DNA from: Verrucomicrobiales bacterium
Lineage (GTDB): Bacteria; Verrucomicrobiota; Verrucomicrobiia; Limisphaerales; UBA9464
DNA: 64,000 nucleotides
NCBI GenBank assembly: GCA_027488845.1
Contig: JAIYBC010000042.1
Span: 1-64,000, forward strand
Direction: 5' to 3'
The notes under the pieces were generated by a model that saw only the letters and a program-made list of their open reading frames with translations, made no database searches and was not told the origin of the DNA. Both the position numbers and the translations under genes were made by a program. Below, one piece after another: positions 1 through 13,282 of this stretch. Positions within the stretch are counted from its first letter, which is position 1; every line of letters begins with the position of its first letter.

Positions 1-1
1 G

Positions 2-115
2 ACCACCAGCGGGAAGGTCCAGCGCCGACGGGTCCGCCAGATGTACCTCGACGGCGCCCTCGAGTCCGTCGGCCGACACGTTGGTCCCACCTTCGGCGGA
101 CAGGCTCCGGCCTGA
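2..115 (+). CDS. C-terminal end of an AMP-forming acyl/aryl ligase (5' end outside window)
   Basis: Only the last 37 codons are in the window. They begin with TTSGKVQRRRVRQMYLDGAL, which matches the A10 motif of adenylate-forming enzymes, where the Lys of SGKVQR is the adenylation lysine. The next gene carries an equivalent motif, ATGKVQRGRCRSLL. The stop at 113-115 lies 49 bp before the next start on the same strand, so this is probably the preceding gene of the same operon and the ligase count of the pathway is at least two. Whether it is a stand-alone ligase or the end of a longer protein cannot be seen. Confidence 0.75.
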   Translation, partial: TTSGKVQRRRVRQMYLDGALESVGRHVGPTFGGQAPA

Positions 116-164
116 GCCGGCACCCGCCATCCCGCTTCCCGCTCCCAAGCCACCGAACCGTCCC

Positions 165-3100
165 ATGTCCGAGATCCGATCCACCGCGTCCACCACCCTT
201 GTCGAGGTCCTCGAGGAGGCCGCCGTCCGTTTCGCGGACACCCCGGCGCACCAGTTCCTGGCGACGCGCGAGGCCGAGCCGGCGGTCACCACGTTCCGGG
301 ATCTGGTCCGCCGGTCGTCCGGGATCGCGGCTTCGATCCGGGACCGGGTGGCGCCCGGACGTCCGGTCCTGGTGGTGACGCCGCCCTCGACGGAATTCCT
401 TCCGGCCCTCGCCGCCTGCTTCCGCCTCGGTTCGCCCGCCGTCCCTCTCTATCCGCCACGGCCGGGCCTCGAGGCCGACGGCGTCGCCTGGATCTCCCGT
501 GTCGCCGGACTCTGCGACGCCGCCCTCGTCCTCGCCCCGGTTGCGCTCGTCCCGCTCCTCCGTGAACACCGTGTCGCCCGCGCGGACGGCACGCCGCTCG
601 AGGTCGTCCCGCTGGATGCCCCGACGGAGGCCGGTCCGCCGTGGGATCGACGTTCCGAAGACCGGTCGGTCGTGGCGGAGACGCCCGCCCTGCTGCTGTT
701 CACGTCGGGTTCGACCGGGGCGCCCAAGGGGGTCGTGCTCACCCACGGGAACCTTGTCGGGAACATCGCGGAATTCGTCCGGGGCGCCCGGCTCGGCTCC
801 GCCGACGCGATGGTGACCTGGCTTCCCAACGGCCACATCGCGGGCCTCTACACGCGGTTGGTCGGGCAGTTCACCGGGGCGACGACCGTCGAGTTTCCCG
901 CCCCGCTGTTCCTCGAGCGGCCCGCCTTCTGGGCGCGGACGATTGCCCGGTTCGGGGCGTCGATCTCGGCCGCACCGAACTTCGCCTACGACCTCCTCGC
1001 CTCGGTCCCGCCCGCGGAGCTTGCCGGCGTCCGGCTCGACCGTTGGCGCCTCGCCATCTCCGGCGGCGAGGTGGTTCGACCCGCGACCTTCCGTGCCCTC
1101 GCCGACACGCTGGGTCCGTGCGGCTTCCAGCCTGCCGCCCTCACCCCCTACTACGGACTCACCGAGACGCTCTGCTCGGCCGTCCGGCTCTCCCCCGACC
1201 CCGGCCAGGTGCGCCTGTCCCGCGCCGGACTCGAACGCCACCGCGCCGAGGACGCCCCGGCCGACGCGACGGACGCCCTCGAGTTCCTCGGCAACGGACC
1301 CGCGCTCGGCTCCACCCGGCTCGCGATCGTCGATCCCGCCACCCGCCGGGGCCTGGCGGAGGATCACGTCGGCGAAATCTGGGTCGGCGGCGCCGCGGTC
1401 ACGCCGGGATACCTGCACCAGGAGACCCTCAACGCCGAGGTGGTCCGCGCCGTGCGCGCCGACGGCACGGACGGAACCTGGTTCCGGACCGGCGACCTCG
1501 GCTTCCTCCGCGCCGGCACGCTGTACGTCACCGGGCGCCTCAAGGAGATGGTGATCGTCCGCGGCAAGAACTACTACCCGGCCGACATCGAACACGCCGC
1601 GCTCTCCGCGCTCTCCGGACACGGCGTCGCCGTCTGCGCCGCGTTCGGACTGGATCTGCGGGGCGAGGAGCAGGTGGCGCTCGCGCTCGAACTGGCCCGT
1701 GGAACCGACGCCACGTCGGCGGACCCATCCGCACTCGCCGCGCTCGCGCAGTCGGGACTTGTCCGTGTCTGCGGGGTCGCCTGCGGCGCCGTCGTGGTCG
1801 TGCCCTTCGGAAGCCTGCCGCGGACGGCGACCGGGAAGGTGCAGAGGGGACGCTGCCGTTCGCTGCTCGAGTCGGGGCAATGGAAGCCGGTTGGGGCGGC
1901 CGCCGCTTCGGCATCCGGTCCGCGGCCCGACGCCTCGGTGCCGTCGCCGCCCCTGGATCCCGCCATCGGCCCCTTCGTGGAGTGGCTCCGCACCGAGATC
2001 GCCATCGTCACCGGCCGGACGCCGGGCTCCGTGGATGTCTCGCTGCCGCTGCCCGCCCTCGGCGTCGACTCGCTGGGGATGGTCCGCCTGCTCGCCGCCA
2101 TGGAGATACGCTTCGCCGCCGGTGTCGGAATCGGACGCATGCTCTCCGCCGCCAGCGTGGTCGAGCTCGCCCGCGGCATCGAGGCCGGCCGCCCGGAGGC
2201 CGTCGAGCCGGTGGACTTCGCCGCCGAACAGAAGGGGTTCACGGACCGCCTGGCGAGCTTCCGCCCCGGCTCCCGCCCGCCGGGCCCGCCGCGAACCGTC
2301 CTCCTCACCGGCGCCACGGGCTTCCTCGGCGCCTACCTCCTCCGCGACCTGCTCGGCGGTTCCGAGTCCCGTGTCCGCTGCCTGGTCCGCGGATCCGACG
2401 CCGCGGACGGACTTCGCCGCCTCCTCCGCAAGCTGGAGTCCATCCCGGGATGGAACCCGGCCTGGGAGCGACGTCTTGAAGTTGTCCACGGGTCACTCGA
2501 TTCCCCCGGCTTCGGCCTGAGCCAGGATGCCTTCCGCGCCCTCGCCGCCGACACGGACCTCATCGTCCACAACGGTGCCAACGTGAACTTCGTGGCCCCG
2601 TACCCGCTCCTGCGAGCGGTCAACGTCACCTCCAACCTCGCCGTCCTCGACCTCGCCCTCGCCGGGGGCGGACTGCCCGTCCACTATGTCTCCACCACCG
2701 CCGTCTTCAACGGGCCGGACCGCGACCGCTTCCCGCTCCTCGACGAGGAGGCCTTCCTCCCCGGGCCGTCCACGCTGTTCAGCGGCTATGCGCAGACGAA
2801 GTGGGTCAGCGAGGCGCTTTGGCGTGTCGCCAAGGGCGGCGGGCTGCCCGTCGCCGTGCACCGGCCCGGCTTGGTCACCGGCGACGCCTCCACGGGCGTG
2901 TGGCACACCGACGACTTCCTCTGCCGCCTCTTCAAGGGCTGCCTCCAGATCGGCGCCTTCCCGGACCTCGAGGTCGGCATCGACATGATCCCCGTCGACG
3001 TCGTCAGCCGGGGGATCGTCGCGGCGGTGGTCGGCGGTGGCCATGGACGGGCCTACCACTGGACCCATCCCGCGCCGGTCCGCCTGCGGGCGATCGCCGG

Positions 3101-3431
3101 GTGGTTCGCCGCCAACGGCTGGGAGGCCCTTGCGCTTCCGGTCGGGGAATGGCTCGCCCGGATCCGAACCGTGGACGAGTCGAACGCCCTCTATCCGCTC
3201 CTGCCCTTCCTGCTCCAGCGGATCGGTCCCGGGGCCGAGAGCATCCTCGAGTTCTTCGGAAGACGGAGCCTCAACCTCGGCCGCTCCAACGCCGCGGCGT
3301 TGGCCGAGGCCGGCGGTTTCCGGTGCCCGGATCCGCTCGCGGAACTGCTTCCCCTCTACGCCGGACACCTCGTCGACACCGGCTACCTCCCGTCCCCTTC
3401 GGTTTCCGTCCATCCGTCAGCCAATCCCTGA
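165..3431 (+). CDS. AMP-ligase (FAAL-like) - carrier - thioester reductase fusion
   Basis: A 1088-residue protein with A-T-R order, as in carboxylic acid reductases and reductase-terminated NRPS modules. The adenylation domain shows LLLFTSGSTGAPKG (about 176-189), WLPNGHIAG resembling the fatty-acyl-AMP-ligase signature, YYGLTE (about 328-333) and the A10 motif ATGKVQR. A carrier domain has LGVDSLGM with Ser636 as the likely phosphopantetheine site. The C-terminal half is an SDR-type thioester reductase with GATGFLG (716-722) and YAQTK (Tyr875, Lys879). Expected chemistry is ATP-dependent loading of a carboxylic acid and NAD(P)H-dependent release as an aldehyde or alcohol. The ATG at 165 was chosen because an upstream TTG at 81 in the same frame overlaps the previous gene and adds a proline-rich tail with no domain. 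It lies 8 bp upstream of the FkbH fusion gene. The substrate cannot be predicted; the FAAL-like signature suggests a fatty or aryl acid. Confidence 0.88.
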   Translation: MSEIRSTASTTLVEVLEEAAVRFADTPAHQFLATREAEPAVTTFRDLVRRSSGIAASIRDRVAPGRPVLVVTPPSTEFLPALAACFRLGSPAVPLYPPRPGLEADGVAWISRVAGLCDAALVLAPVALVPLLREHRVARADGTPLEVVPLDAPTEAGPPWDRRSEDRSVVAETPALLLFTSGSTGAPKGVVLTHGNLVGNIAEFVRGARLGSADAMVTWLPNGHIAGLYTRLVGQFTGATTVEFPAPLFLERPAFWARTIARFGASISAAPNFAYDLLASVPPAELAGVRLDRWRLAISGGEVVRPATFRALADTLGPCGFQPAALTPYYGLTETLCSAVRLSPDPGQVRLSRAGLERHRAEDAPADATDALEFLGNGPALGSTRLAIVDPATRRGLAEDHVGEIWVGGAAVTPGYLHQETLNAEVVRAVRADGTDGTWFRTGDLGFLRAGTLYVTGRLKEMVIVRGKNYYPADIEHAALSALSGHGVAVCAAFGLDLRGEEQVALALELARGTDATSADPSALAALAQSGLVRVCGVACGAVVVVPFGSLPRTATGKVQRGRCRSLLESGQWKPVGAAAASASGPRPDASVPSPPLDPAIGPFVEWLRTEIAIVTGRTPGSVDVSLPLPALGVDSLGMVRLLAAMEIRFAAGVGIGRMLSAASVVELARGIEAGRPEAVEPVDFAAEQKGFTDRLASFRPGSRPPGPPRTVLLTGATGFLGAYLLRDLLGGSESRVRCLVRGSDAADGLRRLLRKLESIPGWNPAWERRLEVVHGSLDSPGFGLSQDAFRALAADTDLIVHNGANVNFVAPYPLLRAVNVTSNLAVLDLALAGGGLPVHYVSTTAVFNGPDRDRFPLLDEEAFLPGPSTLFSGYAQTKWVSEALWRVAKGGGLPVAVHRPGLVTGDASTGVWHTDDFLCRLFKGCLQIGAFPDLEVGIDMIPVDVVSRGIVAAVVGGGHGRAYHWTHPAPVRLRAIAGWFAANGWEALALPVGEWLARIRTVDESNALYPLLPFLLQRIGPGAESILEFFGRRSLNLGRSNAAALAEAGGFRCPDPLAELLPLYAGHLVDTGYLPSPSVSVHPSANP

Positions 3432-3439
3432 ACCCGAAC

Positions 3440-6400
3440 ATGAACCCGACCCCCTCTCCCAAGAACGCCCCAGCCACGACCCATGACGTCGCCGCGATCG
3501 AGGGCTGGCTGCGCACCCGCCTCTGCGGCCCGTTGCGGCTCACCGGACCCGAGGCCGTGGACCTGCGCCGTTCCGCCGAGGACCTCGCCTTGGACTCCAT
3601 GAACGTGGTGCGCCTCGCCGGGGAGCTCGAGGAATGGCTCGGCATCGAGCTGGAGCCCTCCCTCATCTACGAATACGAGAGCCTCGCCGCCTTCGCGCGC
3701 CAGATGGAGGTGATGCATCGGAAGGCCAGCGGGCGACGTGGGGACACGGGTCGTCCCTTCCGGATCGCACTCGCTGCGACCTTCACCGCGGAGCCCGTCG
3801 GCGAGGCCTTGGGATTCGCGCTCGGCCGCATCGGCTACGCCCCGGAAATCCTCTTCGCCCCGTACCACCAGGTCTTCCAGGAACTGCTCAACCCGGCCGG
3901 CGTCCTCGGCTCGAACCGCGACGGCACCAACGTGGCCCTCGTCCGCGTCGAGGACTGGTTCCGCTTCGAGACCGACGTCGTCGACCCGGCGAAGGCCACG
4001 GCCATCGTGGACGACTTCGTCTCCGCCCTCCGCACCCACGCCGCCGGCGGCGGTGCCCGCCTGCTGCTCGTGCTCTGTCCCCACAGCGGACCCCAGGTGC
4101 GCCGCCTCGGCCTCACCGAGGTGCTCGACGCCCTCGACGAACGCATCCTCGACGCAGCGAAGCCGCTCCCGGGCGTCCGCGTCCTCGACCTGCGCGATCC
4201 CGAGTCCCTCCGTGGCGTGCGCCGGGTGCACGACGAATCCCGGGACCACCTCGGCCACATCCCGTTCACGCCGGAATTCTTCAACGCCCTCGGCCTCGAG
4301 GTCGCCCGCCGCGCGTTCACCCCCCGGCATGCGCCGGTGAAGGTGCTCGTCGTGGACTGCGACAACACCCTCTGGCGCGGGGTCGTCGGCGAGGACGGCC
4401 CCCTCGGGATCGAGATCACCCCGGGGCACGCCCGGCTCCAGGACTTCCTCGTGCGGCAACAGCGCGAGGGCCGCCTCCTGTGCCTCGCCTCCAAGAACAA
4501 CGAGGCCGACGTCTGGGAGGTGTTCGACCGCAACCCCGCCATGCGCCTCCGCCGCGAGCACATCGTCTCCGCACGCATCGACTGGTCCCCGAAGTCCGGC
4601 AACATCCTGGACCTCGCCTCCGAACTGCGGCTCGGGCTCGACGGCTTCGTCTTCCTCGACGACAGCCCCACCGAGTGCGAGGAGGTCCGCTCAGCCATTC
4701 CCGACGTCCTCGTCGTCCGGGTCCCCGAGGACCCTTCCCGTCTCGCCGACTTCCTCGACGGCCACTGGGCCTTCGACGCCGAGGGCGTCACCGCCGAGGA
4801 CCGCGAGCGCACCCGGATGTACCGCGAGAACCTCCAGCGCGAGGCGGTCCGCTCGTCCGCCCGGAGCTTCGAGTCCTTCATCGCCCAGCTCGACGTCCGG
4901 GTGGAGATCGCCGCCGCCACCGGAGACGAGGTCCCGAGGATCGCCCAACTGACCCAGCGGACGAACCAGTTCAACGCGACCTCCATCCGGCGTGACGAGG
5001 CGGCCGTTGGGACGCTGCTCCGGGAACCCGCGATCCGGGTCCGCACAGTCCGGGTGAAGGACCGCTTCGGCGACTACGGCCTGGTGGGTCTGCTCGTCGC
5101 CCATCCCGACGCCGGCGCCCGCGCGCTCGTCTGCGAATCCTTCCTCATGAGCTGCCGTGTCCTCGGCAAGCGCGTGGAACAGGCCATGGTCGAGCACCTC
5201 GCCGCGATCGCGGATTCCCTCGGCCTCGAGGCCGTCCACATCCGCTTCGCCGCCTCGGAGAAGAACCGGCCGGTCCGCGACTTCCTGGAAAGCCTCGGCG
5301 AGCCGTGGTCGTCCGTGGAGGACGCCTCCTCCATGCAGGAGATCCGCCTTCCGCTGGGGAAGGTGGCGGCCGCCGTCGCCGCCTCGCGCACGGAACATAC
5401 GCTTCCGTCCAACCCCGCCGCGTCCAACCCCGCCCCGGCGGCTGCGGCGGCCGGGACGGGTTCCGACCGTGTCCGCCTTTCCGACGTCGCCCAAGGGCTC
5501 GAGGCGCTGGCCCGGCTCCATGGAGACCCCGCCGCCCTCCAGGCCGAGATGCGTTCCCGGAACAGGGTCCGCCGCGGGGATCTCGCCACGCCGTTCGTCG
5601 CCCCCCGCACTGCGTGGCAGCGCAAGATCGCCGCCATCTGGGCCGAGGTGCTCGGCGTGGACCGCGTCGGGATCCACGACGGGTTCTTCGACCTCGGCGG
5701 CGACTCGCTGCGCGCTGCGGAGGCGTTCGCCCGCATGTGGGAGATCGGCGCGCCGGAGTCCATCTCGCTCGTCAACGCGTCCGAGGTGACGGTCGCCGGC
5801 GTCGCCGGGGCCATCGAGGAGGTGAAGGCGGGCCGCGAGGCCAAGCTCACCACCGTCCGCACCTCGCTCGACGACGAGGGACGCGTGCCCGAGGACGTCC
5901 ACGCCGCCGCCGGCGCCGTGGTCCTCGCGGAACCGATGATGCGCCGGGTCTTCCTGACCGGCGCCACCGGCTACCTCGGCGCCTTCCTGCTCGCCGAGCT
6001 GATGCGTCAGACCGCGGTCGCCGTCACCTGCCTCGTCCGTGCCGCGAGCCCGGCGGAGGGACGCCGACGCGTCGTCGCCAACCTCTCCCGCTACGGGCTC
6101 TGGGACGACTCCTGGACCGCCCGCGTCGGAATCGTCCTCGGTGAGCTTTCCGAGCCCCGTTTCGGCCTGTCCGAGGAGCGCTTCCGCACCTTGGCCGCGG
6201 ATCACGACACGATCTTCCACTCCGGCGCCTGGGTGAACTTCGTGTTCCCCTACGAGCGGCTGCGCCCCTCGCACGTCGACGCCATGGAACACGTGATGCG
6301 TCTGGCCACGGCGAATCCCGACCGCGTCCTGAACCTGCACTTCATCTCGACGCTCGGCGTGATCATGTCCACCGGCTACGCCCGCGGCTCGGTGGTCCCG

Positions 6401-7090
6401 GAGGACGAGCGCCTGCAGCACGTCGAGGGCCTTCTCAACGGCTACGAACAGGCCAAGCACGTGGCCGACCGCATGGCCTGGACCGGGATGAAGGAACGCG
6501 GCATCCCGACCGCGATCTACCGCCCCGGCATGGTCGGCGGGGACGGCGTCACCGGCGAGTACCACAAGCTCGATGAGTTCCTCTCCTCCTTCTACAAGGG
6601 CTGCATCCAGCTCGGGGCCATGCCGCTGCTGGAGTCCACGTGGGAGGTGATCCCGGTGGACTTCCTCACCCGCGTCGTCGTCCACGGAGCCCGGCGCGAG
6701 GGAACCCTCGGGCACGTCTACCACTCGCTCCACCCGGAGCCGACGCCGGTCGCCGACTACATCCGCTGGTTCAACGAGTCCGGCTATCCGATGCGCGCGC
6801 TGCCCTGGTCCGTCTGGAAGAGCGAGCTGATGGCCCAGGGGCCGGTCCGTCTCAAGGAGAACGCGTTGTTCCCATTCGTCGACTTCATCCGTGCGCTCAC
6901 CGACGAGCAGGTCTACTTCCCGGCCACCGACAAGTCGAACTGGCGGCGTCTCGTGTCCGCAAGCGGCCTGTCCTGTCCCGCCCAGCGCGACGTGCTCGAC
7001 CGCTACCTCGCCCACTTCGCGAAGGTCGGCTTCCTCCAATCCCCGCGCCCGGGCTCCGCGCGCGATCCCCGTTCCCTCATCCAAGCCTGA
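3440..7090 (+). CDS. Carrier - FkbH glyceryltransferase/phosphatase - carrier - thioester reductase fusion
   Basis: A 1216-residue multidomain protein. Residues about 20-90 form a carrier with LDSMN (Ser53). Residues about 300-470 are an FkbH-type HAD domain with VVDCDNTLW (Asp306, Cys307, Asp308), LASKNN and VFLDDSP (Asp407, Asp408), followed by the FkbH C-terminal region with RTNQFNATSIRR. FkbH enzymes take a glyceryl unit from 1,3-bisphosphoglycerate through the Cys of DCDNT and pass it to a carrier thiol. A second carrier has DLGGDSLRA (Ser756). A C-terminal thioester reductase has GATGYLG (841-847) and YEQAK (Tyr1002, Lys1006). An Ala/Pro-rich linker joins FkbH to the second carrier. Ending a glyceryl-loading protein with a reductase is unusual: known FkbH proteins normally feed polyketide synthases. 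A plausible product is a glyceraldehyde-level C3 unit, but this is inference. Confidence 0.87.
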   Translation: MNPTPSPKNAPATTHDVAAIEGWLRTRLCGPLRLTGPEAVDLRRSAEDLALDSMNVVRLAGELEEWLGIELEPSLIYEYESLAAFARQMEVMHRKASGRRGDTGRPFRIALAATFTAEPVGEALGFALGRIGYAPEILFAPYHQVFQELLNPAGVLGSNRDGTNVALVRVEDWFRFETDVVDPAKATAIVDDFVSALRTHAAGGGARLLLVLCPHSGPQVRRLGLTEVLDALDERILDAAKPLPGVRVLDLRDPESLRGVRRVHDESRDHLGHIPFTPEFFNALGLEVARRAFTPRHAPVKVLVVDCDNTLWRGVVGEDGPLGIEITPGHARLQDFLVRQQREGRLLCLASKNNEADVWEVFDRNPAMRLRREHIVSARIDWSPKSGNILDLASELRLGLDGFVFLDDSPTECEEVRSAIPDVLVVRVPEDPSRLADFLDGHWAFDAEGVTAEDRERTRMYRENLQREAVRSSARSFESFIAQLDVRVEIAAATGDEVPRIAQLTQRTNQFNATSIRRDEAAVGTLLREPAIRVRTVRVKDRFGDYGLVGLLVAHPDAGARALVCESFLMSCRVLGKRVEQAMVEHLAAIADSLGLEAVHIRFAASEKNRPVRDFLESLGEPWSSVEDASSMQEIRLPLGKVAAAVAASRTEHTLPSNPAASNPAPAAAAAGTGSDRVRLSDVAQGLEALARLHGDPAALQAEMRSRNRVRRGDLATPFVAPRTAWQRKIAAIWAEVLGVDRVGIHDGFFDLGGDSLRAAEAFARMWEIGAPESISLVNASEVTVAGVAGAIEEVKAGREAKLTTVRTSLDDEGRVPEDVHAAAGAVVLAEPMMRRVFLTGATGYLGAFLLAELMRQTAVAVTCLVRAASPAEGRRRVVANLSRYGLWDDSWTARVGIVLGELSEPRFGLSEERFRTLAADHDTIFHSGAWVNFVFPYERLRPSHVDAMEHVMRLATANPDRVLNLHFISTLGVIMSTGYARGSVVPEDERLQHVEGLLNGYEQAKHVADRMAWTGMKERGIPTAIYRPGMVGGDGVTGEYHKLDEFLSSFYKGCIQLGAMPLLESTWEVIPVDFLTRVVVHGARREGTLGHVYHSLHPEPTPVADYIRWFNESGYPMRALPWSVWKSELMAQGPVRLKENALFPFVDFIRALTDEQVYFPATDKSNWRRLVSASGLSCPAQRDVLDRYLAHFAKVGFLQSPRPGSARDPRSLIQA

Positions 7091-7124
7091 ACCCAGGCGC
7101 CTGTCGCCGGATTCCCCCTCCACC

Positions 7125-8192
7125 ATGCATCCCCCAGCCCCTCCCGCCACCACCACCGCCTCCCGGCCCGCCGCCATCGACAACCGCCCCGTCTTCGACC
7201 CGACCGTCATCGGGTTCTCAGAGGCCTACTACGTCATCTGGACCGACCCCGAGGCCCAACGGTCCATGGTCGTCCGCTATGTGCTCTTCAACGGACCGGT
7301 CGAGGACCACCGGATCGCCGAGGTCTGGTGCTGGTACCGCGACCGCCTCCGGGGCGACGACATCGCCATCCGCCAACGCTATCCGCTGAAGTCCGCGACG
7401 ATCGCGGCCTCGGGCTTCGACCTCCGCATCGGCGCCGGCTCGGGCATCACCGACGAACGCGCCTGGGGCGTCGTCGAGGACGCCGGCCGGGTCGTCGCCT
7501 GGGACTTCCACATGCCCGCCCCCGCCGCGACCGGCGTGGACCGTCTCCGTGGCGCGTCCGGCTCGGTGCTCTTCCCCCGCTTCTACTCCACCGGCTGCCG
7601 CAGGACCCTGGACGCCCGCGTCCGCGTCGACGGCGCCGAGATCGTGGCCCGCGGCGTCGCGGCCACGGACGGCCACTACTGGAACACGCACCACCTGCGG
7701 ACCTGGAGCTGGGCCAACGGGGTGCGTTTCCGCGGCGCCCCCGACGCGTTCCTGGAGGCCATCGCCTTCCGCCTGCATTCCGACGACGCGCCCATGGCGG
7801 TGAGCCTGACGCTCGGCGACGGCGGCTGGATCTGGCAGAACGACATGCTCGAGAGCCTCTATCTCAACCGCGAACTGGAGACGCAGCTCGAACGCTGGAA
7901 GGTCTCCGCCGGTTTCGGCGGACGCCGCGTGGAGGCCGAGGTCGGCGGCGATCCGGACGACATGATCCTGATCACCCATCCGCTCCCCGACGGCTCCTTC
8001 CTCTACACCACCATCACGCTCGAGGCCCGCATCCGCGTGGTCGTCCACGACGAGGGTCCCGGAGGCGGCACGCGCGTGCTCGAGTCCGAGGGCGGCGCCT
8101 CGTTCGAGGTCACCAAGCCGGTTCGGAACGGGCGCGTCCGGAGGGAATTCCGCATCGTCGCCGCCCCATCCCACCTCCTTTCCTCCCGTTGA
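7125..8192 (+). CDS. Lipocalin-like protein (AttH/CrtC/tocopherol-cyclase type fold suspected)
   Basis: A 355-residue protein without signal peptide, beta-rich and unusually rich in Trp and His. Clusters include VWCWYRDR, WDFHMPAP, HYWNTHHLRTWSWANG and DGGWIWQND. This pattern resembles two-domain lipocalin-like proteins such as AttH, hydroxyneurosporene synthase (CrtC) and tocopherol cyclase, which hydrate or cyclise lipids. The resemblance is by eye and family membership is uncertain. It starts 34 bp after the FkbH fusion, and the next gene starts 23 bp downstream, so it is very likely in the same operon and may act on the released lipid or aldehyde. The ATG at 7125 follows a pyrimidine-rich leader with no obvious ribosome binding site. 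Confidence 0.6.
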   Translation: MHPPAPPATTTASRPAAIDNRPVFDPTVIGFSEAYYVIWTDPEAQRSMVVRYVLFNGPVEDHRIAEVWCWYRDRLRGDDIAIRQRYPLKSATIAASGFDLRIGAGSGITDERAWGVVEDAGRVVAWDFHMPAPAATGVDRLRGASGSVLFPRFYSTGCRRTLDARVRVDGAEIVARGVAATDGHYWNTHHLRTWSWANGVRFRGAPDAFLEAIAFRLHSDDAPMAVSLTLGDGGWIWQNDMLESLYLNRELETQLERWKVSAGFGGRRVEAEVGGDPDDMILITHPLPDGSFLYTTITLEARIRVVVHDEGPGGGTRVLESEGGASFEVTKPVRNGRVRREFRIVAAPSHLLSSR

Positions 8193-8215
8193 ACCGCCGA
8201 CAGGAAGCCACACCC

Positions 8216-8620
8216 ATGGGATCCCACCTCCAACCCGAACCGTTGCTCCGGCACATCTACGGCCTCTACCGCAGCGGCGACCTCTCCGGTTTCCCGGCGA
8301 TCGTCTCGCCCGACTGCGAGTGGGTCTTCCCAGGCAACCCGGAGATCCTTCCCTGGGCCGGGACCTACCGGGGCCTCGGCATCTTCGACTTCGCCGCGAA
8401 GATCGCCGGGTCGATCGCCTACGAACACTTCGAGGACCACACCTACCTGCCTTCCGGGGATTCGGTGGTGGTCGTCCTCCGCGAGCGCTGTCGGGTCCTG
8501 TCGACCGGCAAGGTGTTCCACAACGACATCGCCGCCGTGGCGACGGTGCGTGCCGGACTGCTGGTGCGCTATGTGGAATACAGCGACACCGGTGCGATGG
8601 AGCGCGCCTTCGCGAAGTGA
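8216..8620 (+). CDS. NTF2-like / SnoaL-like domain protein
   Basis: A 134-residue protein with the layout of a SnoaL/ketosteroid-isomerase-like cone fold: an N-terminal helix (HIYGLYRSGDLSGFPAIV), then CEWVFPGNPEILPWAGTYRG, where a Trp-Ala-Gly-x-Tyr-x-Gly turn is typical, then strands ending in VRYVEYSDTGAMERAF. Members of this superfamily are cyclases, isomerases or dehydratases in polyketide pathways, though many have no known activity. It is the last gene of the plus-strand operon and faces the convergent SGNH hydrolase gene 45 bp away. The ATG at 8216 is preceded by GGAAG at a suitable distance. Substrate unknown; a tailoring role is inferred from position. Confidence 0.72.
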   Translation: MGSHLQPEPLLRHIYGLYRSGDLSGFPAIVSPDCEWVFPGNPEILPWAGTYRGLGIFDFAAKIAGSIAYEHFEDHTYLPSGDSVVVVLRERCRVLSTGKVFHNDIAAVATVRAGLLVRYVEYSDTGAMERAFAK

Positions 8621-8665
8621 GGGACGTCGCCGGGCGTCAGGCCTGGGCCGGACGGGTCACGCGTC

Positions 8666-9976
8666 TCACTTCGCCTTGCGCACGGTGAACGTGTGGCCCC
8701 GGGGCTTGCGGGCTTCGTCGAGGCGTTTCTCGAGGTTGGCCACCTCGGTGTCGAGACGCGCGAGTTCGGTGGCCCGCCGGGCCTCGAGATCCGGGCCCTT
8801 GGCCCAGCCCGGGAAGTTGTGCAGCTGCACCCCGCGCCAACGCTCGAAGTAGACGTCGTTCTTCCGGAACACGCCCTTGAGCACCTCCTGCGACTGCCGG
8901 GTGACCGCGCCCGCATTGCGGGTGAGGTCCACGCCCCCGGCCAACGACCTGGAGTCCGTCTTCAGCGTCGTCTCGCCGTCCACGCCGACCTCGTAGTCGC
9001 CCTCGGGCAGGCCGGTCACGGTCAGGGTGTAGCGGCTCAGTTCCGCAAGCACCGGGGCCAGGCCGAGCGCGGGCACGGCACGGTCGTCCACGGGGAACGG
9101 CAGCGCCGAATCGAGGCGGTCGAACGACACGCCGTCGGCGGACACCTTCAGGTTCGAGACCGTGCAGCCCTCGGCCGAGGACTTGGAGCCGGTCGCATCG
9201 ATGGACACCGAGGACACCGTCGCCGTCGCCCCGAGGCCCTTGAGCACCGCCCACGCCATCAGCAGCTGGCCGGAGTGACCGGGATGCACCGCGTCGCCGC
9301 CTCCGATGAAGGCCTTCGGATCCTTGGCCCGGGCCGTCAGCATCAGGTCCATGAACGGCTGGAACTGGTCCACGAACCCGGCGCCGGCCTGCGTCGCGAC
9401 GTCCTTCAATCCGTCCGAGAAACGCCGGAGCGACAGGTTGCGGTCGTCCTTGTCCGGATCCGGGCGGCGTTCCTCGATGGGCTGGGGCGTGAGGAAGGCG
9501 ACCCTCGCCCCGGCCGCCTGGAGTTCGCGCGCGATCTCGGCCTGGCTGCGGGCGTAGGCCCGGAAGATGTCGGGACGGAACTTCTGGTAGGAGTGGTCGT
9601 TCATCCCGAACTTCACCGTCACGAACGTCGGCCGATGCGGCAGCACGTCCCGTCCCAGTCCGCGGGCCACGGCGTTGGTCACCATGCCGTCGAGCGCCTC
9701 GCCTTCCGCTGCGAAGAGGCGTCCCTCGTCGGGATGCGCGCGCTGACGGAGCCAGGCGGTGTCGCCGCCCCAGCCGACGTTGCGGAAGCTCAGCTTCCAA
9801 TCCGGATGCCGTGTGAGCGCGTAGGCCTCGATGTAGGTGGTGTAGAGGCGCTGTTCCGTGATGCTGTCGCCGAGGAACACCACGCGGTCGCCGTCGCGGA
9901 TCGCGAAGTCGGCGGCGAGGAGGTCGAAGGCGGCGACGAGGCCGGAAAGCACCAGGAACGTGCGGCGGAGTGGCAT
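8666..9976 (-). CDS. Secreted SGNH/GDSL hydrolase
   Basis: A 436-residue protein. The start at 9976 puts a signal peptide (MPLRRTFLVLSGL..., cleavage near residue 22) at the N-terminus; a longer in-frame reading to 10027 only adds a polar extension. SGNH blocks are present: block I FLGDSITEQ (Ser38), a Gly around 69-71 (VGWGGD), block III GMND (Asn126) and block V DAVHPGH (Asp228, His231). These form the catalytic triad and oxyanion hole of esterases and acetyl-hydrolases acting on glycans or lipids. The last 50 residues are charged and probably helical (a coiled stretch around EARRATELARLDTEVANLEKR). It converges with the NTF2-like gene and is probably monocistronic. Substrate unknown; PVC relatives often deacetylate polysaccharides. 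Confidence 0.85.
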   Translation of the reverse strand: MPLRRTFLVLSGLVAAFDLLAADFAIRDGDRVVFLGDSITEQRLYTTYIEAYALTRHPDWKLSFRNVGWGGDTAWLRQRAHPDEGRLFAAEGEALDGMVTNAVARGLGRDVLPHRPTFVTVKFGMNDHSYQKFRPDIFRAYARSQAEIARELQAAGARVAFLTPQPIEERRPDPDKDDRNLSLRRFSDGLKDVATQAGAGFVDQFQPFMDLMLTARAKDPKAFIGGGDAVHPGHSGQLLMAWAVLKGLGATATVSSVSIDATGSKSSAEGCTVSNLKVSADGVSFDRLDSALPFPVDDRAVPALGLAPVLAELSRYTLTVTGLPEGDYEVGVDGETTLKTDSRSLAGGVDLTRNAGAVTRQSQEVLKGVFRKNDVYFERWRGVQLHNFPGWAKGPDLEARRATELARLDTEVANLEKRLDEARKPRGHTFTVRKAK

Positions 9977-10039
9977 GTCGGGAGACTGCCCTTCGAACGT
10001 CCCCGGCGACAAGCGGCCGGTGGCCACGGCGTCACCGGT

Positions 10040-10444
10040 TCAGGATAACCGGGTGAGGACCACCTCGGCGACCGCAACGAGGAGGACGACCAAGCCGAAG
10101 GCGCCTCCGCGCTTCCATCCTTGGAGGACCTTGGGCGACCAGTAGTCCGCCTTCCGTCCGATCCGGTAGACCAGCCATCCCCAGCTGCCGATCATCAGGA
10201 GGCCGAGCAGGAGGAAGAGCGTCCGGGTGCTCATCGGTGCGCCTCCCTGTTCCAGCCGTCCCATGGAGCCGACCCAATAGACCTGGGCGACCGTCGAGGA
10301 GACCGCGAGGAGGATGGCGCGGTTCCAGGGGATCAGTCGGGCCCAGCCGAGGGCCATGAAGAGACCGAAGGGCAGGGTGAGGACCGAGAGGATCCAACCC
10401 CAGGCGGGGATCGGGCGGACGGGTTTGCAGGCGATGGGTTCCAC
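10040..10444 (-). CDS. Small membrane protein with four predicted transmembrane helices
   Basis: Reading from the GTG at 10444 gives 134 residues with four hydrophobic segments: around WGWILSVLTLPFGLFMALG, AILLAVSSTVAQVYWVG, LFLLLGLLMIGSWGWLVYR and GGAFGLVVLLVAVAEVVL. An open frame continues upstream to an ATG at 10669, but that extension is polar, proline-rich and overlaps a dispersed repeat, so the GTG is preferred. I do not recognise the family. Its stop lies about 60 bp from the start of the neighbouring SGNH gene on the same strand. Function unknown. Confidence 0.55.
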   Translation of the reverse strand: MEPIACKPVRPIPAWGWILSVLTLPFGLFMALGWARLIPWNRAILLAVSSTVAQVYWVGSMGRLEQGGAPMSTRTLFLLLGLLMIGSWGWLVYRIGRKADYWSPKVLQGWKRGGAFGLVVLLVAVAEVVLTRLS

Positions 10445-10721
10445 GGGATCCCGCCACGAGGACGGTTCCGGAGGCTCTACACCCTCCCGGGCCGGGAATC
10501 CAGCCCCGCCGCGTCCCGGTCGGCTTGGCCGGAAAGAATCTCGGAAGGAACCAGGCCAGGCTTCACCCAAACCCGCCAAGGCGCAGCGGAAGCACGGGAC
10601 CCGGGACCTGCAACCGCCGGTCACCGTTCGGTTTCCGGTCCCTTCTCGAGCCGACCGCCACGGCCCCATTCTCCTCCGCGGCCTAGACGCTTCACGCCTT
10701 CGCGCGAGCCTCCGCCCCGGT
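10445..10721. other. Intergenic stretch containing one CGCCAAG-type dispersed repeat
   Basis: It lies between the four-helix membrane protein and glnB. It holds one copy of the ACCCGCCAAGGCGC phrase near 10571-10585 that recurs elsewhere in the window. No convincing gene is seen; the open frame across it is the unsupported upstream extension of the membrane protein. Confidence 0.5.
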
Positions 10722-11975
<1,254 letters not shown>

Positions 11976-11980
11976 TCACA

Positions 11981-12045
11981 GACGGCCGTTGCCCGTCGTC
12001 CGTTGTCGGTTGTCCGTGGCCTTGGCCGTCGGGCCACGGACGATC
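11981..12045. repeat. Dispersed GTTGCCCGTTGTCCG-type phrase repeat
   Basis: The stretch reads as runs of near-repeats of CCGTTGCCCGTCGTCCGT. Closely similar wording occurs at about 24107-24158 and, on the other strand, at about 27850-27882 (CTGACAACGGACCACTGAC). All copies are intergenic. Confidence 0.6.
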
Positions 12046-12103
12046 ATCGCCGCTGCCCGGTTCCCCACTGGAAACTGGAAACCGAAAACTTCGAACTCCC
12101 CGT

Positions 12104-13282
12104 TCACTTCTTCTTCAGGCCGATGCTGCTGGCGCGCTTGGCGACCTTCCGGCTGGTGAGGACCTTCGAGACCGTGCCGGTCTTGAGGTACTTGGACTTC
12201 ACGGTGTCCAGGATCGCGTCGCGGTGGTCGTACAGGCGCTTGAGCTTGCGGGGCTTCACCCGGGCGGTGACGTACGCCGTGAGCAGCGGCAGCGCGATGG
12301 TGGTGTCCGTGTAGCAGACCACCGAGTCGGGGAGCTTGTCGGGATCGACCTTGCCCCAGCTGACGGCCTCGGCCGGCGTGGCGCCGCTCAGGCCGCCGGT
12401 GTCCGGGCGGGCGTCGGTGCACTGCAGGAAGTAGTCGTGGCCCTTCTCCTGGATGCCCATGACCTCCTGGATCTGGGGCTCGGTCTGGAGCATGAAGTTC
12501 TTCGGGCTGCCGCCGCCGAGGATGAACACGCTGCTGGTGTGGCCGGTGCTCTTGGCGTGGTAGACGATGCCCGCGGTCTGGTTCACGTCGCGGTTCACGT
12601 CGGGCAGGAGCTTCGAGCCGCGCATCGACATCGCCGCCACGTTCATGCCGATCGAGCTGTCGCCCGGGCTGCTGGTGAAGATGGGGATCCCGCACTCGTA
12701 CGCGGTGGCCAGCACCGAGCTGTCGGCGATGCCGAGCTTCTTCTGGCGGGCGTGGACGTACTTGCCGAGCAGGTAATGGAATTCGTCGGTGCCCATCGTC
12801 CGCTGGAACTCCGGTCCCTGGATCACCTCGCGAACGAAGGCGTCGGTGTCGAGCAGCACGTTGTAGTCGAACAGCACGTCGTAGATGCGGATGACGCCCT
12901 CCCCGTGCAGTTCCACGTCGTCGAGGAACGGCGTGCCGCTGTGCAGGTGCATGTCCAGGCCGAAGTGCAGGTCGTGGTAGAGGTTCGCGCCGGTCGAGAT
13001 GATCCAGTCCACGTAGCCGCCCTTCATCAGCGGGATGAGGCAGCTCTTCCCGAGTCCGGCCGGGGTCAGGGCGCCGGTGAGCGACATGCCGATGAAGCCG
13101 TCGTCGGGCAGCATCTTCCTCGCGAGGAGCATCGCGGCCTCCCGCAGGCGGCCGCCGTTGTAGGCCAGCATGGACTGGTCGATCAGGTCGGCGGCGGAGA
13201 TGTCCTTGCCCACGCCGAACGGATTCAGGCGCGGGTAGGCGGCGAACTTCTTCGAGATCTTGTGGGCGGAGGCTTTGCTCAT
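12104..13282 (-). CDS. Deoxyhypusine-synthase-family protein
   Basis: A 392-residue protein clearly of the deoxyhypusine synthase fold. It contains [32 protein letters not shown] with NAD-binding features, GGGSPKN, and [10 protein letters not shown], where Lys311 corresponds to the enzyme-intermediate lysine of eukaryotic DHS. In eukaryotes DHS transfers aminobutyl from spermidine to eIF5A. Bacteria lack eIF5A, and bacterial homologues are thought to act on free polyamines, for example as homospermidine synthases, or on agmatine-derived substrates. An eIF5A-like target is not expected here. The lysine and NAD-site residues appear intact, so it should be catalytically competent. No other polyamine gene is in the window. 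Confidence 0.88.

Follow-up and report, generated by a model that had tools for sequence, protein, structure and literature searches.

The stretch of DNA under study (hereafter the window) covers positions 1 to 64,000 of contig JAIYBC010000042.1 from a Verrucomicrobiales bacterium (assembly GCA_027488845.1), read on the forward strand. It corresponds to contig C40 of genome G000 from base 1 and begins at a contig end. Its first five genes, all on the + strand, form a thiotemplate operon encoding, in order, a stand-alone fatty acyl-AMP ligase (FAAL), a protein with AMP-ligase, carrier and thioester reductase domains (A-T-R), a protein in which an FkbH domain lies between two carriers and is followed by a reductase (T-FkbH-T-R), a protein predicted to adopt the AttH fold and a protein of the SnoaL_2 family. 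A sequence-only reading of the window had described five co-oriented genes separated by 49, 8, 34 and 23 bp, and the coordinates agree with this description. The features are as follows.

2-115, + strand: 3′ end of gene 1, stand-alone FAAL; within a 117-bp exact contig overlap, full 604 aa on contig C49
165-3431, + strand: gene 2, A-T-R protein, 1088 aa
210-1415, + strand: FAAL-type AMP-ligase (AMP-binding) domain of gene 2 (PF00501; best PDB matches over the region include FAALs)
1980-2174, + strand: carrier (T) domain of gene 2, motif LGVDSL (PF00550; D635 and S636 invariant, 4/4)
2295-3389, + strand: thioester reductase (R) domain of gene 2 (TIGR01746; GxxGxxG and YxxxK invariant, 4/4)
3440-7090, + strand: gene 3, T-FkbH-T-R protein, 1216 aa
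3506-3700, + strand: first carrier of gene 3, T1 (PF00550; like Asl1650 and Pks13-type N-terminal carriers)
4337-5302, + strand: FkbH domain of gene 3, motif DCDNTLW (TIGR01686)
5585-5809, + strand: second carrier of gene 3, T2, motif LGGDSL (PF00550, two stretches)
5948-7036, + strand: thioester reductase domain of gene 3 (TIGR01746; best PDB match MxaA)
7125-8192, + strand: gene 4, predicted AttH / kievitone hydratase / lipocalin-like pericyclase fold, 355 aa
8216-8620, + strand: gene 5, SnoaL_2 / NTF2-fold protein, 134 aa (PF12680)

The domains recognized by eye in the sequence-only reading were all recovered with hidden Markov models (AMP-binding, PP-binding, NAD_binding_4, SnoaL_2, TIGR01686 and TIGR01746). 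For the gene 1 protein and the A domain of gene 2 alike, the PDB and NCBIfam hits are led by enzymes of FAAL/FadD type and by polyketide synthase (PKS) ligase domains. Neither domain reaches the cut-off of any single FAAL subfamily; the matches nonetheless support grouping both A domains with FAALs. The reductase of gene 2 passes the TIGR01746 (Thioester-redct) cut-off of 213.35, the two R domains of the operon scoring 275.8 and 261.1. The carrier serine of gene 2 and the GxxGxxG and YxxxK motifs of its reductase are conserved in all four aligned rows that cover them. Among the solved chains covering the R domains of genes 2 and 3, the best match of both is MxaA, an enzyme that makes an alcohol.

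The FkbH assignment of gene 3 is firm: the TIGR01686 score is 313.2 bits, against a curated cut-off of 146.65, and the match spans the whole model. The sequence DCDNTLW at residue 306 conforms to DxDNT, a HAD-type motif, and is kept in all five rows covering it. The T1 serine is present in four rows, and the T2 serine and the reductase motifs (GxxGxxG, YxxxK) in six of six. The FkbH and the two reductase domains thus keep their motifs in alignments, as the sequence-only reading requires. The FkbH domain is preceded by an N-terminal extension (residues 95 to 299, approximately), deduced from matches that begin near residues 85 to 109. T1 resembles Asl1650 and the N-terminal acyl carrier protein (ACP) of Pks13-type synthases, which is loaded by the FAAL FadD32.

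An AMP-ligase, a carrier and a reductase are also combined in carboxylic acid reductases and in ElbD. Assignment of gene 2 to the former was rejected on the NF041592 score (130.9 versus a cut-off of 1300), and membership in the ElbD group on the lack of any acyltransferase family among the Pfam matches of genes 2 and 3. ElbD differs further in the N-terminal position of its reductase-like domain, and it carries an acyltransferase-like domain (PMC9131029; statements drawn from this and the other papers cited here refer to the portions of each that were available). The likeness nonetheless invites an explanation in which FkbH delivers some other phosphorylated hydroxy-acid, or serves a structural purpose, with the operon feeding fatty aldehydes or alcohols into an ether-lipid or wax pathway, by analogy with ElbD of Myxococcus. 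The elb operon also has a HAD-like phosphohydrolase beside the ligase/ACP/reductase set that the A-T-R protein resembles (PMC9131029), ElbD homologues are reported from 43 of the 270 Verrucomicrobia metagenome-assembled genomes (MAGs) of one study (PMC11868695), and MxaA is the closest solved chain for both reductases. However, the acyltransferase-like domain of ElbD (PMC9131029) has no counterpart in the Pfam matches of genes 2 and 3, and the FkbH match is strong over the complete model; we regard this explanation as decidedly improbable.

The product of gene 4 gave no Pfam match at E 0.01, and a PDB sequence search returned nothing usable; its homologue in Rubritalea marina has a weak Tocopherol_cycl match, below cut-off. 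An AlphaFold model (mean predicted local distance difference test, pLDDT, 68.8) matched 13 entries for AttH, kievitone hydratase, CghA, Phm7, Fsa2 and 25-phosphosteroid lyase with Z scores of 16.1 to 20.0, the next row scoring 6.5. The two-domain beta fold is thus shared (Z 19-20 to AttH, kievitone hydratase and CghA/Phm7/Fsa2), whereas sequence identity in those rows is 4-13%. From the model, gene 4 encodes a protein of the AttH / hydratase / pericyclase fold, a description that replaces the “lipocalin-like” label given earlier; sharing this fold is no proof of hydratase or pericyclase function. Gene 5 scores 39.7 bits with SnoaL_2 (PF12680; gathering cut-off 27 bits), and its model (pLDDT 90.7) aligns at Z 19.3 with 3fgy, an NTF2-like protein. 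Ketosteroid isomerase, TerC, limonene epoxide hydrolase and PhzA/B appear further down the list of fold neighbours, which also includes putative polyketide cyclases.

The AMP-ligase that is truncated at position 1 was completed from an upstream contig. The first 117 bp of the window recur at the end of contig C49 (6786 bp) and at the end of reversed contig C42, and C49 carries the complete gene 1 (L008:4970-6784), encoding a 604-aa FAAL. Divergent from gene 1, C49 encodes a two-component pair, a Reg_prop histidine kinase and a LuxR-type response regulator. This contig starts with the same 119 bp as the repeat at its end, and a path that takes in every contig a single time reads C42(rev)-C49-C40. 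The layout rests on the 117-bp repeat, the alternative being direct joining of C42 to C40 with C49 separate; under either layout a FAAL gene ends 49 bp before gene 2. The regulator-FAAL-ATR order is shared by the L027 locus of a related freshwater genome, which likewise carries a divergent kinase and regulator.

Reversed C42 ends in a second FAAL gene (L009:3-1835, - strand), whose product is 71% identical to the gene 1 protein. Directly before it lies a methyltransferase gene (L009:1909-2865, - strand), with a LuxR-type response regulator beyond, on the other strand; this stretch is possibly a duplicated regulator-FAAL unit. The two FAAL paralogue genes are near-identical over their final 400 bp or so, the last 119 being exact (window 1-117; L008:6670-6786; L009:1-117), which suggests recent gene conversion or duplication. 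The same repeat breaks the assembly.

A scan of named genomes gave 41 relatives of gene 3, five being Verrucomicrobiota of the operon group (L027, L028, L029, L030 and L031). The T-FkbH-T-R protein is complete in L027, L030 and L031, and cut at the N-terminus in L028 and L029. The sequence-only reading had proposed looking for the same gene order elsewhere: all five genes recur, in the same order and on the same strand, in L027 (within L077 of the freshwater genome, G693) and in L031, from the cultured Rubritalea marina DSM 17716. Genes 3 to 5 follow one another up to the contig ends in L028 (identical to L022 of the congener G005) and in L029 (by its coordinates the contig holding the G692 match). 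In L030, from the Opitutales MAG OFTM360, genes 1 and 2 are followed by a run of other small genes and then by gene 3. The intervening segment (L030:6319-9853) holds several small genes, one with a metallo-beta-lactamase match. Gene 4 of OFTM360 sits near the end of another contig, in a match that carries a single flagged in-frame TAA; the stretches read yielded no homologue of gene 5.

Wider scans returned few genomes. Among 320 genomes of the order, 5 matched the gene 4 model, including a decayed copy (G054); in the phylum sample it matched 2 of 387 (the window genome and, weakly and in part, one other), and of 97 genomes sampled from the R. marina family it matched 1, R. marina itself. The G054 remnant (L076, G054:C22, 6040-8935) consists of pieces of genes 2 to 5, with genes 4 and 5 swapped. 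Gene 3 was matched in one of 18 congeners (G005) and, at E 1e-60, in 31 of the 387 phylum genomes, with a whole-model match in the window genome only. The ratio of nonsynonymous to synonymous substitution rates (dN/dS) between the window and G005, where genes 1 and 2 are unavailable, was 0.176 for gene 3 (767 codons), 0.169 for gene 4 and 0.196 for gene 5. Since few genomes match in the gene 3 and gene 4 scans while dN/dS is this low, the operon is rare and patchy, yet conserved where present. The recurrence of the gene order in other genomes of the phylum, together with dN/dS of 0.17-0.20 for genes 3 to 5, confirms that the five genes make up a real operon, beyond chance; a chance arrangement or a pseudogene was rejected on the same two grounds. 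The patchy distribution, with a decayed example among the five matching genomes of the order, would fit a nonfunctional relic of a lost assembly line. Such a relic would, however, hardly be expected to show these dN/dS values, or to keep its gene order in the window and in R. marina, whose proteins are 35-51% identical, and we hold it to be very improbable.

The feature that sets the operon apart is the absence of a condensing enzyme. Queries for ketosynthase (KS) and condensation (C) domains gave no tblastn match in the 64-kb window, in C49 or in the first 20 kb of C42, nor in any locus of the operon group (L022, L027, L029, L030, L031 and L077). Pfam searches of ten upstream and operon proteins likewise detected neither domain, and a FabH-like joining enzyme was absent from the scanned set. 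A modular PKS or nonribosomal peptide synthetase (NRPS) cluster directly upstream, which would have turned these proteins into ordinary loading and release modules, was accordingly rejected: what lies there is the FAAL, the divergent two-component pair, the second FAAL and the methyltransferase. The C domain family, PF00668, was not matched in G000 (95.4% complete), in G005 (67% complete) or in R. marina; G693 has one match and OFTM360 two, all of them away from the operon loci, and a C domain supplied from elsewhere in the genome was rejected on this basis. The claim that no condensing enzyme is present thus holds for the operon, for its upstream region and, as regards the C domain, for the whole window genome. 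Counting KS and C motifs by regular expression in the 41 loci proved too insensitive to be used, since in L033 it overlooked both domains where Pfam detected them.

Gene 3 might instead act with a trans-acting ketosynthase, of the FabF or FabH type, and serve as an ordinary module in building an extended chain, in the manner of tetronate and butenolide pathways. The tetronate glycerate-utilisation operon resembles ours in that an FkbH-like enzyme and a carrier make glyceryl-ACP, with which a FabH-like enzyme then acts; it differs in that this enzyme does the joining, and neither a thioester reductase nor a FAAL is named in the available portion of the paper (PMC7489565). Only two other FkbH-T-R proteins were seen, in Paenibacillus curdlanolyticus (L032) and in G378, a genome of this phylum (L082, L101). 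They share the FkbH-T-R end, and L032 also a FAAL-T protein upstream, but in both of them KS and C occur within that protein or stretch. The L032 locus of strain YK9 (L032:2533-15753) encodes FAAL-T, KS-T-C-FkbH-T-R, an ApbA-type reductase and a PapA-like protein; in L101 (G378:C520, about 1208-12679) the matches run KS, KS, C, FkbH, T, R, an ending similar to that of BurF but with FkbH retained. Moreover, the four carrier genomes searched all have KS and FabH-type matches: for PF00109 two each in G000 and R. marina, within open reading frames (ORFs) of 384-506 aa on contigs other than that of the operon, and three in G693 and ten in OFTM360, one ORF of the latter holding several; for PF08545 (FabH type) two in G000 (on C35 and C57), one in R. 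marina, two in G693 and five in OFTM360. On the other hand, no KS lies near the operon in any carrier locus, and the copies in G000 and R. marina are few enough to be accounted for by housekeeping fatty acid synthesis. Recruitment of a ketosynthase in trans appears improbable to us.

The domain context of FkbH was compared across the other multidomain loci, which number 35: 26 in a first set (L032-L055, L013 and L023), 23 with C directly before FkbH, and nine from the phylum scan (L082-L090), two with C directly before. The 12 stand-alone FkbH ORFs (L056-L067) stand outside this set. All 35 show a C or KS match, one of them weak, and in 25 the C domain directly precedes FkbH; it is absent from that position in the four complete proteins of the operon group, a count that leaves aside the N-terminally cut L028 and L029. 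The ten loci without C directly before FkbH include L037 (FkbH at the ORF start, C later), L046 and L047 (some 400 residues between C and FkbH) and L083, whose N-terminal FkbH is cut by the contig end and whose single weak C match lies after FkbH. A KS follows FkbH in six of the nine phylum loci, and none follows FkbH-T in the operon group. In the six phylum genomes of L084-L089, FkbH precedes KS and has no C match before it, an arrangement like that of a loading module.

In a 38-row FkbH tree the operon group fell among C-FkbH-T proteins, from which, with 23 of 26 loci having C before FkbH, loss of the C domain had been read. This reading was withdrawn after nine rows were added: in the 47-row tree the group is one clade (100/100) beside L043 and L083 (98/96), within a clade of mixed types. 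L043 is a C-FkbH-T protein on a long branch and L083 an N-terminal FkbH without C before it. Because these neighbours are mixed in type, loss of a C domain in the operon group can be called possible and nothing stronger. Both trees leave out six partial sequences (L028, L029, L034, L055, L058 and L067); several rows, including the window's, were flagged for unusual composition, and L043, L064, L082 and L090 for long branches.

Systems that pair the same parts use a C domain. Within NRPS modules, FkbH occupies the A-domain position and charges the T domain with a glyceryl unit; for vioprolide, an ester-forming C domain links the fatty acid recruited by a FAAL to this glycerate (PMC8949500). The operon shares the FAAL for the fatty acid and the FkbH for the glycerate, but the vioprolide modules belong to a PKS/NRPS line, whereas here neither C nor KS was found and both arms end in a reductase. 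In the malleicyprol pathway, the C domain of BurF esterifies two carrier-bound chains and a reductase releases an aldehyde that cyclises; BurF carries an FkbH-type N-terminal extension and, the paper suggests, may have lost the phosphatase and acyltransferase parts of FkbH (PMC12304814). The terminal module of BurF is thus like gene 3 in its extension, carrier and terminal reductase, and differs in needing the ester-forming C domain, while the operon keeps FkbH and has no C (PMC12304814). Among open-licence PMC papers we found no description of a five-gene operon lacking KS and C, and no co-occurrence of FkbH and a thioester reductase with a fatty acyl-AMP ligase or with an aldehyde. Every domain is known, and the combined logic of FAAL and FkbH already exists in assembly lines; the five-gene form without KS and C is the part that appears new.

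Taken together, these findings point to a small thiotemplate pathway of two arms, one acyl and one glyceryl, akin to the FAAL/FkbH modules that make acyl-glycerate esters, but without KS or C and with reductive release. We put the probability of this reading at roughly 0.38. The corresponding interpretation in the sequence-only reading stands as regards the FAAL-type A domains, the retained FkbH and reductase motifs and the lack of a condensing domain, and falls as regards the “lipocalin-like” gene 4. Gene content, order and conservation, motifs, folds and the absence of KS and C are observed; each substrate and bond in the scheme we infer. The stand-alone FAAL would adenylate a fatty acid and load it onto T1 of gene 3, as the relatives of T1 suggest. 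FkbH would take D-1,3-bisphosphoglycerate and place a glyceryl unit on T2, in keeping with its family and with the carrier directly after FkbH being the usual partner. Joining of the two units would follow with no condensation domain involved, an O-acyl-glyceryl ester being the simplest outcome; the acyltransferase half of FkbH, gene 4 or gene 5 are the candidates for this weakest step. The terminal reductase of gene 3, whose domain and motifs are present, would release the product as an aldehyde or alcohol, and the A-T-R protein would reduce a second, probably fatty, acid to an aldehyde or alcohol. Acid-base finishing (hydration or dehydration, cyclisation or aldol-type joining) may fall to the AttH-fold and SnoaL_2 proteins, and the outcome would be a glyceryl-containing lipid.

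Several points weigh against this pathway. Its joining step has candidate enzymes only, and an ester alone leaves the A-T-R protein unexplained, so that a second substrate is needed. The nearest relatives in the 47-row tree are one C-FkbH-T protein and one FkbH without preceding C, and in the phylum an FkbH lacking a preceding C commonly occupies a loading position before KS (the six of nine loci above). Finally, because OFTM360 has genes 1 to 3 on one contig, gene 4 elsewhere and no gene 5 found, genes 4 and 5 may be dispensable for the core chemistry.

In the model that follows from the sequence-only reading, each arm is reduced separately, to a free fatty aldehyde (A-T-R) and D-glyceraldehyde (T-FkbH-T-R), and the AttH-fold and SnoaL_2 proteins would then join the two by aldol- or acetal-type chemistry. 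Each arm does have its own T-R pair, no C domain exists in G000 or R. marina, and the fold neighbours of gene 5 include putative polyketide cyclases, ketosteroid isomerase and PhzA/B. However, a carrier-bound route to glyceraldehyde seems wasteful because this compound is readily obtained from central metabolism; T1 and the stand-alone FAAL are left without a role; and BurF joins its chains before reduction (PMC12304814). We consider separate reduction of the two arms unlikely. The preferred pathway can also be taken a step further: carrier-bound acyl and glyceryl units would be joined without KS or C, the joining or ring closure being carried out by the hydratase/pericyclase-fold and SnoaL-fold proteins, to give an undescribed class of reduced glyceryl lipids in Verrucomicrobiota. 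This extended proposal is tentative and, in our estimate, rather doubtful.

Joining carrier-bound units normally requires a ketosynthase or a condensation domain, and the operon could reveal another way of making such a bond. As Rubritalea marina DSM 17716 is a deposited strain, the question is directly testable. Study of the operon would also help to give a function to a bacterial branch of the AttH/pericyclase fold.

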